Shown here one piece after another: positions 15,862-25,649 of a DNA stretch of 33,187 nucleotides. Source of the DNA: Haloferax larsenii JCM 13917 (GTDB lineage Archaea; Halobacteriota; Halobacteria; Halobacteriales; Haloferacaceae); NCBI RefSeq assembly GCF_000336955.1, contig NZ_AOLI01000017.1, forward strand, positions 198,785 through 231,971, read 5' to 3'. The notes below the pieces were generated by a model. It was not told where the DNA came from, ran no database searches, and worked only from the letters and a program-made list of their open reading frames with translations. The position numbers and the translations under genes were made by a program. The stretch's first letter is position 1; every line of letters starts with the position of its first letter.

Positions 15862-15916
15862 GGCTCTGTTGAAGTCCTCAGAGATTACATGTTTGCTCGG
15901 TAGTCTGACTGGGTGG
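15862..15916 (+). mobile_element. Solo left end of an IS5-like element
   Basis: GGCTCTGTTGAAGTCCTCAG starts at 15862 and continues with sequence closely matching the first ~53 bases of the IS5-like element at 24383 (shared CTCAGAGA-TTACA, then CGGTAGT-TGACT). No transposase and no matching right end follow, so this is an IS scar. A poor second copy (GACTCTATCGAAACC) is nearby at about 15932. From 15917 to 16157 nothing else is recognised; GGGAGGA at 16158-16164 precedes the Usp gene. Confidence 0.6.
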
Positions 15917-16179
15917 GGTTTGGGAGTCGACGACTCTATCGAAACCGTTAGAGACTGAGAGAATCGGCGTGACACAGACAGAGAGGATGCAGCAAACTGG
16001 CTGAGTTCGTTTCAGTGATGAGAGAACAGGAAGCACGGAGACAACCCTTCGACGAGACCTAGGTGTACTCTCCAACAGTTCGGACTCCCGCTCACCGGAG
16101 CGTGGTTGCCTCCGGTGTTCGGAGACGCCTGCACCCCGCGAAGGATTGAAACGCTCCGGGAGGAAATACTTGGTACATA

Positions 16180-23008: not shown

Positions 23009-23401
23009 ATGGCTCCAGCACCCGACGAGGATATCGATGAAAACCTCCGAGAGGTTCGCGAACTCACGCCGAACGCGTGTCCAGGCGTCCAGTCGCTGGA
23101 CCAGTTCGGGACCAAGTGGCGACTTCGGATTCTCTACAACCTATTCGATGGCAGTCACCGATTTAACGAGCTGAAGCGAGCCTCTGGGGCGAGTTCGTAC
23201 ACACTCTCGCGAGTCCTCGAATCACTCGAAGACGATGGAATCGTCGACCGTCGTGTCGAGGAAGGGCCACCGGTCGAGACCCACTACAGCTTGACTGAGA
23301 AGGGTGCAGCACTCGAGCCAGTGTTCGACGCAATCGACGAGTGGAATGCAGAGTGGGTTGGAGAAGCGAGTGAGCAGCCCACTGGGGCGCCTGACGTTTG
23401 A
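23009..23401 (+). CDS. HxlR-family winged-helix transcriptional regulator
   Basis: The product has 130 residues. The HxlR pattern is clear: a Cys near the N-terminus (CPGVQSLDQFGTKWRLRILYNL), then GSHRFNELKRASGASSYTLSRVLESLEDDGIVDRR (recognition helix and turn), and the wing VETHYSLTEKG. HxlR regulators respond to quinones, aldehydes or redox signals, often through the conserved Cys (here Cys24). It lies downstream of the VOC and GST genes and is a good candidate for their regulator. The stop codon's final A is the first base of the target duplication of the mobile element at 23409-23999, so the element inserted exactly behind this gene without harming it. Confidence 0.9.
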   Translation: MAPAPDEDIDENLREVRELTPNACPGVQSLDQFGTKWRLRILYNLFDGSHRFNELKRASGASSYTLSRVLESLEDDGIVDRRVEEGPPVETHYSLTEKGAALEPVFDAIDEWNAEWVGEASEQPTGAPDV

Positions 23402-23408
23402 TTTCTTC
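23401..23408 (+). repeat. Left 8-bp target-site duplication
   Basis: ATTTCTTC here is repeated exactly at 24000-24007. The two copies lie directly outside the two terminal inverted repeats, as expected for transposition of the intervening element. Confidence 0.9.
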
Positions 23409-23999
23409 GGCTCTGTTGAAATCCTCAATGGCCAACATCTTCTGGTTGGGGTCGTGAAGTAGAGATAACATACTTACTACGGCCGAATGTAGTCAAACAT
23501 GTGCAACGTCGCCACGCCCTCCTCGCCGCGACCGCCGCGTTGTCCGGATTCACCGGTTGTATCGCCCCGTTCACGTCCAGCGGATCCCTCAAGGAGGTGA
23601 GCGTCAAACTTTGGAATGCGGACGACAGAGCGCGGACGTTCCACCTCGCGCTCGAAACCGAAGCCGGTATGCTGGACTGGGAGTCACACCATATCGACGC
23701 GGGCGCCGACGAGCTAGTGACGATTGCTCCGGACGAAGACGTCTCCCCGGTCGCGTTACACGGAGCCGTCGAGGATTTCGCAGGGAGCGTCGATATCTTA
23801 GGTGTTGATGACCTCGACGAGAACTACTGTCTCCAATTCGATTTCTCGTACTTGCATCCAACCGACAAGCGACCGCAGTTGGCGATGATCGCCGACATCG
23901 AATGCGAATCCTGAACCATTCTGCCGATAGATTCGCAACCTCCACTTACCAGCTGTTCCGTCGATAATAGTGTCTGATAAATGGGGTCTCAACAGAGCC
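23409..23999 (+). mobile_element. Non-autonomous IS5-like element (591 bp) carrying a lipoprotein gene
   Basis: The left end GGCTCTGTTGAAATCCTCA (23409-23427) is identical to the first 19 bases of the decayed IS5-family element at 24383. The right end (23984-23999), read as its complement, gives GGCTCTGTTGAGACCC: the first 11 bases match perfectly and 14 of 16 overall. Both ends are bounded by the 8-bp direct repeat ATTTCTTC. No transposase lies inside. Instead there is one intact gene (23501-23914) for a lipoprotein. The element is therefore a MITE-like or passenger-carrying unit that must be mobilised in trans by a related transposase. The intact duplication implies a fairly recent insertion, directly after the HxlR gene. 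Confidence 0.85.
23501..23914 (+). CDS. Lipoprotein of unknown function, passenger of the mobile element (137 aa)
   Basis: The product starts with a short Arg-Arg Tat-like signal (QRRHALLAATAALSG) ending in a lipobox FTGC at 17-20, so Cys20 would be lipidated. The rest is an acidic all-beta-looking domain: SVKLWNADDRARTFHLALE, then HHIDAGADELVTIAPDE, then NYCLQFDFSYLH near the end. No family is recognised; the pattern resembles other small haloarchaeal Ig-like lipoproteins. The start is a GTG at 23501. AT-rich CATACTTACTAC (23469-23480) lies about 25-30 bases upstream, fitting leaderless transcription from a promoter inside the element. Being the only gene between the inverted repeats, it moves with them. 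Function unknown. Confidence 0.75.
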   Translation: MQRRHALLAATAALSGFTGCIAPFTSSGSLKEVSVKLWNADDRARTFHLALETEAGMLDWESHHIDAGADELVTIAPDEDVSPVALHGAVEDFAGSVDILGVDDLDENYCLQFDFSYLHPTDKRPQLAMIADIECES

Positions 24000-24007
24000 A
24001 TTTCTTC
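24000..24007 (+). repeat. Right 8-bp target-site duplication
   Basis: ATTTCTTC is an exact copy of 23401-23408, directly following the right terminal repeat. Confidence 0.9.
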
Positions 24008-24382: not shown

Positions 24383-25016
24383 GGCTCTGTTGAAATCCTC
24401 AGAGAGTTACACGTCCACCCGGTAGTTTGACTAGATGTAGGCCCTCCCGAAGTCGTGGTTACTCCGGTTCGTCGAGTAGGCATTCCACTTGGCTCGGCAA
24501 CCTGTCGCCCGCTACTCCGCGAAGTTTTCAAAACGACGGTACACACTACACCAGCACATCGTCTTGCTCTGTCTCAAAGTTCGGAAAAATGCGACATACC
24601 GGGCACTTCTCGACGAACTCATCGAGATGCCCCGCATTCGGAAAGCCATCAATCTGGATGAGGTCTCGTCACCCTCAACATCATGTAAAGCGTTCAACCG
24701 CCTTGACATGGCCGTTTGGCGGGTTCTTCTCAATCTCTCAGTCACGATTCTTCCGACCAACGGTATCGTCGGGGTCGATGCCTCCGGCTTGACCGCACTC
24801 ACGCCTCTAAGCACTACACGAAGCGAACGAACTGACGATTCAGCAATTGAAAGTCACACCGGACTTCTACGGACAACGTAGTCAGAACGAGACGGTGAAC
24901 TCTCGTATCAAACGGAAATACGGCGCATTCGTCCGCTCACGATACTGGTGGAAGCAGTTCCGTGAACTCGTTGTCGGCTGTCTCCTCACGATATCGACAA
25001 GGTACTCTGAACGGTA
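24383..25016 (+). pseudogene. Decayed IS5-family insertion sequence and transposase
   Basis: The left terminal sequence GGCTCTGTTGAAATCCTCAG begins at 24383. From about 24433 a transposase can be followed: LARQPVARYSAKFSKRRYTL, LIEMPRIRKAINL, FNRLDMAVWRVLLNLS, then GVDASG. It has two early TAG stops (near 24438 and 24477), a one-base loss after GVDASG (about 24788), another frameshift near 24831, and an internal deletion near 24857. The deletion joins QQLKV to DFYGQRSQNETVNSR and removes much of the central catalytic region. The tail KRKYGAFVRSRYWWKQFREL runs to 25016. No right inverted repeat is visible. The element is dead but shares its end with the cargo element at 23409 and the solo end at 15862. 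Confidence 0.85.
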
Positions 25017-25068
25017 GAGTAGGTGAACGGCTTAGCACAGGAGATGAATCTCATTCATCAACTGGTAG

Positions 25069-25551
25069 TCAAGATTGCAGCAGTTCTAGTAGCTTTTTCC
25101 CGTCGCTTATCCTGCCGCCGTAGGAACCACCGGAGTACGTCTGGGGAACAATCGTATAGTAGGCCCTGCCGAGCAGCCAGAAAAAGAAAAATTGCAGTGC
25201 ACCAAACAGCAGTCCGTCGATTCCACTTAGTAGAAGGATGCTGGTGGCAAGTAAGAGCGTCACAGTGACTAGCGGCCCGCAGGCGAGTCCGAGCGCGTGA
25301 ACGCGCTTCGACTCGACGCCACTCCAGTCCGTGGACCCATACAGGAACGTGTTTTTAAGACCATCAATACCTGCCGTTATCTTGAGCCGACCAAGCTTGA
25401 CTGTCCACCCATCAGGGTTCCCGATGGTGATATGTGCACGCCCACCTACCAGTAGAACCGGAACTGCGTGCCCGAGTTCGTGGACGAACAGCTCTGAAAA
25501 CAATGCTATAGGGAGCGCAATGAGGACAGCAACACTAACCATCCACTCCAT
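25069..25551 (-). CDS. M50-type membrane metalloprotease (HELGH)
   Basis: The product has 160 residues from the ATG at 25551; a GTG seven codons upstream is also possible. The first helix (about 4-22) runs directly into HELGH (24-28), the zinc-binding motif of site-2-type proteases, followed by a second hydrophobic stretch. Later helices lie near 85-105 and 112-130. The usual second-site motif (NxxPxxxxDG) of classical S2P proteins is not seen, so this resembles the shorter M50 'peptidase-like' group. A role in membrane-protein processing is possible. The gene ends about 50 bases from the decayed IS5-like element. Confidence 0.75.
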   Translation of the reverse strand: MEWMVSVAVLIALPIALFSELFVHELGHAVPVLLVGGRAHITIGNPDGWTVKLGRLKITAGIDGLKNTFLYGSTDWSGVESKRVHALGLACGPLVTVTLLLATSILLLSGIDGLLFGALQFFFFWLLGRAYYTIVPQTYSGGSYGGRISDGKKLLELLQS

Positions 25552-25649
25552 TGTGTGTCGTCTTTCGGGCACGCTGCTTTTTTCTTTCGTGCCTCACCCT
25601 GTTCATCTGTTGAACCAGTAGCCCACGGATCCGTGCGACCACTGTCCCG

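Follow-up and report, generated by a model that had tools for sequence, protein, structure and literature searches.

The window, that is, the 33,187-nucleotide stretch of the Haloferax larsenii JCM 13917 genome that was analysed here (contig NZ_AOLI01000017.1, positions 198,785 to 231,971), contains a gene for an HxlR-family regulator, a 591-bp unit behind this gene and, further downstream, a decayed insertion sequence (IS) of the IS5 family (Table 1). The 591-bp unit lies between exact 8-bp direct repeats and harbors a single ORF of 137 aa, with no transposase ORF. A sequence-only reading had described it as a mini-transposon with matching terminal inverted repeats, an exact 8-bp repeat outside each end, no transposase and an intact lipoprotein gene, inserted with preservation of the HxlR stop codon, and each of these features was located on re-examination; the stop codon is the TGA at 23399–23401, the last base of which is the first base of the left copy of ATTTCTTC. 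The reported identity of its left end to that of the decayed element was likewise recovered, over 19 bp (23409–23427 and 24383–24401) with about 384 bp between them.

Table 1. Features of the 591-bp unit and its surroundings (window positions)
Feature	Position	Strand	Remarks
HxlR-family regulator gene, hosting the insertion site, stop codon kept	23009..23401	+	Pfam HxlR, E=8e-23
Left copy of target duplication, 8 bp, ATTTCTTC	23401..23408	.	Site found empty in other genomes
Left terminal inverted repeat, GGCTCTGTTGAAATCC	23409..23424	+	Matches the transposase-bearing clade's end exactly
Rest of left end, adjoining the cargo; transposase ORF absent (probable internal deletion)	23425..23457	+	
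TATA-like ATACTTAC, 24–31 nt upstream of the start codon	23470..23477	+	Homolog alignment; putative promoter
Passenger gene, GTG start; predicted 137-aa Tat lipoprotein with beta-sandwich fold	23501..23914	+	
Conserved right-end module, ~70 bp, terminating in the right inverted repeat	23930..23999	+	
Right terminal inverted repeat, GGGTCTCAACAGAGCC	23984..23999		14/16 complementary to left
Right copy of target duplication, 8 bp, ATTTCTTC	24000..24007	.	
Decayed, transposase-bearing relative; left end as in the unit, IS5 transposase in fragments, right end missing	24383..25018	+	

The repeats flanking the 591-bp unit are not due to chance. With up to three mismatches allowed, the end sequence occurs four times in the window against an expectation of 0.25, no shuffled sequence reached four occurrences, and the rate of a perfect 8-bp match among mispaired flanks of related elements, used as a control, was 1e-4. 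A search for empty sites was performed by joining the flanks in silico and comparing the result with the haloarchaeal class. The unoccupied site that the sequence-only reading had proposed to look for was present in four other haloarchaeal genomes (L236, L237, L240 and L241), in which HxlR loci of other genera pass the insertion point without interruption and continue into CTCGAGGGCGTGG-like sequence; these genomes belong to other families, and no empty site was found within Haloferax, where the HxlR locus is not conserved. The orthologous insertion, with the same duplication, is carried by plasmid pHl5678-1 of Haloferax larsenii NCIM 5678. The unit was inserted behind the HxlR gene and generated the 8-bp duplication in doing so. 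An ordinary resident lipoprotein gene, with flanking repeats that arose by chance or are remnants of two unrelated IS ends, would be in keeping with the single copy of the 591-bp unit in its own genome, where no further copies were found, and with homologs in loci without recognisable terminal repeats. This explanation is nevertheless extremely improbable in view of the exact 8-bp duplication, the uninterrupted orthologous sites and a second copy in another genus, complete with both repeats; with that copy, the uninterrupted sites already amount to a refutation.

The decayed IS is absent from H. larsenii NCIM 5678, and homology between the two strains ends exactly at its left end (24383). Window positions 24384–25592 replace 315 unrelated bp of strain NCIM 5678, the left break coinciding with the left end of the decayed IS, and the 315-bp stretch includes GTGCTGAATACAGGGCG, which resembles the right-end module of the same clade. 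A membrane protein of 167 aa, zinc-metalloprotease-like in its HELGH motif and with no Pfam match, is encoded on the minus strand at 25069–25572; at 15862–15917, GGCTCTGTTGAAGTCC and the left-end-like sequence after it represent a further left end from the same IS clade.

The second complete copy, of the kind that the sequence-only reading had suggested searching for at other sites, was identified in Haloarcula pelagica (NZ_CP126163.1): it is 592 bp long, has inverted repeats matching at 16/16 positions and carries the same lipoprotein at a different site. A nested IS, with a transposase, a PAS-domain gene and its own duplication (GATTGGCT), has been inserted over the left edge of this copy, and once it is subtracted the flanks ATCTGATT and ATCTAATT match at 7/8 positions. 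A transposase-bearing parent with the same lipoprotein was also identified: in Natrinema salsiterrestre (L012, L071 and L122), a full element with the same ends carries the gene after a frameshifted IS5 transposase and before its right repeat. The Halorussus halobius locus has a 3′ remnant of the transposase directly before the same lipoprotein, and the locus in H. elongans retains the right repeat. In total, the lipoproteins of 12 loci in five families are 68–82% identical, and the homology is limited to a cassette of ~480–540 bp. Around the other homologs (those of Haloferax sp. Q22, H. gibbonsii and N. hispanicum among them), homology breaks off sharply, and terminal repeats are mostly not recognisable; the lipoprotein gene may also move by another route, or the elements without repeats may have decayed.

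These observations indicate that the 591-bp unit is, very probably, a transposase-less, passenger-carrying mobile insertion cassette of an ISHla2-like clade of the IS5 family that generates 8-bp duplications. The 8-bp target duplication and matching inverted repeats typical of the IS5 family are present in the unit and in 58 relatives described below. As in mobile insertion cassettes, two IS inverted repeats enclose a passenger gene without a transposase, and mobility is documented by the duplication, the empty site and copies elsewhere; the complete conserved gene separates the unit from MITEs, which are short, non-coding, transposase-less elements with IS ends, and the lack of a transposase separates it from transporter IS, a class to which the 58 verified elements of the parent clade do belong. 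The unit would have originated by loss of the transposase ORF from a cargo-bearing element and would be moved in trans by an intact relative.

A different origin, in which two solo IS ends came to enclose the gene as an independent composite without any loss of a transposase, could explain why the left end of the unit departs from that of the intact IS after base 19, with 33 bp of the left end unmatched, and Haloferax often has solo or 125-bp units with the same ends. It is, however, quite unlikely, given that Natrinema has the same gene after the transposase and ahead of the right end, that in Halorussus halobius a 3′ remnant of a transposase adjoins it, that homology among the window unit, L012 and L016 extends to the right tip, and that the left end of the H. 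pelagica copy, compared by eye, resembles an IS left end joined to the linker that follows the transposase.

The passenger ORF begins with a twin-arginine motif and a lipobox (MQRRHALLAATAALSGFTGC), and no family in Pfam or NCBIfam matched it. The AlphaFold model obtained from 11 sequences was poor (pLDDT 56), that from 25 sequences was good (pLDDT 82), and a beta sandwich of eight strands is predicted. The best Foldseek hit was the TssJ1 lipoprotein, which was rejected as a functional match at a TM score of ~0.5 and 8% identity; as all matches were merely generic beta-sandwich ones, no function is claimed for the lipoprotein. The TATA-like ATACTTAC is conserved among the homologs and lies at the upstream limit of homology, which starts just before it; this conserved upstream sequence implies that the lipoprotein travels with its own putative promoter. 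The median dN/dS of the lipoprotein was 0.23 (91 pairs), with values of about 0.5–1.3 for the closest pairs, so selection on the window copy may be relaxed.

The parent clade has the ends found in the window unit, and its transposase matches the NCBIfam model NF033579 (transpos_IS5_2) at 145.9 bits (cut-off 140) and Pfam PF01609 at 50.9 (cut-off 23), in agreement with an IS5-type DDE transposase. A complete 1765-bp element with an intact 283-aa transposase and a perfect duplication (CCTAGCCC) is present on contig C19 of the same genome and is a candidate helper for the 591-bp unit; it carries, before its right end, a lipoprotein gene other than that of the window. Close relatives of this transposase were found in 157 of 391 haloarchaeal genomes (40%) and 60 of 86 genera. 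The 107 loci analysed were those most similar to a single cargo-bearing transposase, at 78–100% identity; 99 of them have paired ends, and the 58 with an exact 8-bp duplication were taken as verified, the remaining 41 end-paired elements, without a matching duplication, being left out of the count. The verified elements are 1193–3325 bp long, 50 of them have an intact transposase, and in all 58 the distance from the transposase stop codon to the right repeat is 264–2405 bp. Three parts are constant: the left end together with the transposase, a weakly conserved 10–30-bp linker behind the stop codon and a ~70-bp right-end module, in which the window unit also terminates; the variable cargo zone lies between the stop codon and this module, with both element ends conserved.

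The 58 verified elements contain 56 distinct cargo sequences, which include lipoproteins, membrane proteins, enzymes, transporters and regulators. The ORFs of the cargo zone were called mechanically, and some may be on the wrong strand. Recognisable domains were found in 10 of 10 chosen cargo ORFs in one batch (nine above the curated cut-off) and in 6 of 10 in another; the Pfam domains include TehB-like methyltransferase, PLP enzyme, GNAT, RibD_C, redoxin, maltose acetyltransferase, SnoaL, alpha/beta hydrolase, formate/nitrite transporter, DUF7344 with HalOD1, archaeal pilin, substrate-binding protein and histidine kinase. By a rough rule-based count from hydropathy only, the 56 cargos include at least 5 lipoproteins, and ~31 elements encode a predicted membrane protein. 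Spreading or varying surface proteins, the role that the sequence-only reading proposed for such an element, would be a possible function: lipoproteins and membrane proteins are frequent among the cargos, next to the enzymes, transporters and regulators. The cargo zones of L163 and L168, both of which are counted among the 56, contain transposase-like genes (IS6-like, 227 aa, and IS66-like, 485 aa, as judged by eye), i.e., nested mobile elements.

As a control, elements of sister clades detected by the same NCBIfam model, with transposases 39–48% identical, were examined: the five verified ones were all without cargo, being 919–942 bp long and extending 8–32 bp past the stop codon. Thus, on this small control sample, cargo is a trait of the ISHla2-like clade. 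The remark in the sequence-only reading that elements of the non-autonomous kind rarely code for proteins in haloarchaea is in line with PMC3119063, but in the ISHla2-like clade gene cargo is the rule.

Cargo turnover is illustrated by L088 of Haloferax and L128 on a plasmid of Halorussus halophilus, which have the left 939 bp in common with 2 mismatches and the right 60 bp in common, whereas their cargo zones (845 and 2405 bp, respectively) consist of unrelated DNA. More generally, elements with 93–99.8% identical transposase DNA usually carry different cargo: among the 28 listed pairs with ≥93% identity in the transposase part, the cargo differs in 26. The pairs L098/L101 and L195/L196 each share one cargo although the duplications at their sites differ; cargo therefore travels along with its element. 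Taken together, the sequence comparisons show that the complete unit is mobile and that cargo is replaced between fixed borders in the clade.

Cargo would most likely be gained when the left end of a transposase-bearing copy is joined to a right end farther downstream, contributed by a MITE or another copy, and the gene in between is swept up; recombination between element copies would then shuffle the cargos. In L161, cargo and right end are followed by a second cargo and a second right end; the right end of L099 is part of a MITE-like unit, and that of L160 is 93% identical over 40 bp to the end of a 125-bp MITE. From such arrangements we infer that capture via a distal right end may have occurred. 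Internal end-like sites were found in 8 of the 58 verified elements against 3.2 expected, a mild excess that gives a weak indication of composite origin overall, so recombination between copies would be an equally open route of shuffling.

Transposase-less cargo units also occur elsewhere in Haloferax, namely L208 (467 bp) and L211 (944 bp, with a 212-aa ORF), both with perfect duplications, and L218 and L219 (Na/Ca exchanger), with duplications matching at 6–7 of 8 positions. L202 contains a nested unit of 1353 bp with a 307-aa lipoprotein ORF and the duplication GTTCGAAT, located within the cargo gene of a larger element; after its removal in silico, the cargo gene is an open ORF of 134 aa. 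Empty 125-bp MITEs that share these ends and have perfect 8-bp duplications were identified in L224 (1160–1284) and L227 (163–287). A similar 125-bp spacing was seen again in several Haloferax genomes.

Cargo that is neutral DNA, trapped at random, decaying and of value to neither host nor element, would yield the 56 distinct sequences among 58 elements through random capture and fast turnover, as well as a zone such as that of the verified element L170, which lacks any ORF of ≥55 aa. This account of the clade, under which the 591-bp unit itself would still be real, is somewhat unlikely, since many cargos are full-length with recognisable domains, the median dN/dS of the lipoprotein is low although that of the closest pairs is not, and cargo is kept in every verified element of the clade versus none of the sister clades. 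Tentatively, the clade may instead be a dedicated shuttle for one to a few genes, in which the cargo zone is kept for the benefit of element or host and exchange outpaces transposase divergence.

Insertion sequences are usually regarded as gene-poor parasites, and integron gene cassettes are moved by a tyrosine integrase acting on attC sites. The clade resembles integron cassettes in outcome only, as small mobile gene units whose content changes fast between fixed borders; movement is marked here by inverted repeats and 8-bp duplications, which point to DDE transposition and not to an integron cassette. Mobile insertion cassettes, with two IS ends, target duplications, no transposase and a passenger gene inside, presumably depend on a related IS for activation in trans (PMC3129680); the window unit differs in its IS5-family ends, its archaeal host and a parent clade that bears cargo in every verified copy. 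Transporter IS (tIS) are IS copies with passenger genes unrelated to transposition (PMC3129680), and the clade, with a transposase and a passenger gene between the same ends, resembles them; its cargo, however, is universal in the verified sample and varies among near-identical transposases, and both borders are conserved. Haloarchaeal MITEs (the HqIRS families of Haloquadratum and ISH2) are also transposase-less with ends related to a helper IS, and the ISH2-type element has one ORF (PMC3119063, PMC10264941), but these elements are mostly non-coding and ~530 bp or shorter, in contrast to the diverse complete genes found here, and the ends of ISH2 are related to ISH8. The target duplication of ISH1 is tabulated as 8 bp (PMC10264941). 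Hlac_3088 of Halorubrum lacusprofundi, compared by its description, is a surface-type protein that is likewise the passenger of a haloarchaeal transposon (PMC10544981).

The closest named relative is the "IS5-like element ISHla2 family" of RefSeq, from Halorubrum lacusprofundi, with an 82% identical transposase followed, before the right end, by a short hypothetical gene (57 aa); no description of this extra gene as cargo was found in the literature searched, and many records label copies of the clade merely as "IS5 family transposase". Mobile insertion cassettes and transporter IS are thus known kinds of element; the ubiquity and turnover of cargo in this clade were not found described, and a search of the open-access literature, outside which many journals lie, gave no archaeal IS clade with universal, rapidly exchanged cargo. 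If the shuttle reading is true, archaea would have a transposase-based counterpart of the gene-cassette system. The clade is a concrete vehicle of gene exchange among haloarchaea, and many "hypothetical" lipoprotein or membrane genes beside "IS5 family transposase" annotations are predicted to be mobile cargo. The matched, near-identical elements make the acquisition of passenger genes by IS testable.

Two minor observations concern the same ends and their target sites. A 408-bp unit with these ends, a 64-aa hydrophobic ORF, no transposase and flanks matching at 6/8 positions is present in the own genome (L085, 2005–2412; C14:71004–71411). Among the 58 verified 8-mers, the last base is C or T in 52 and the third base is G in 2, which suggests a target preference.
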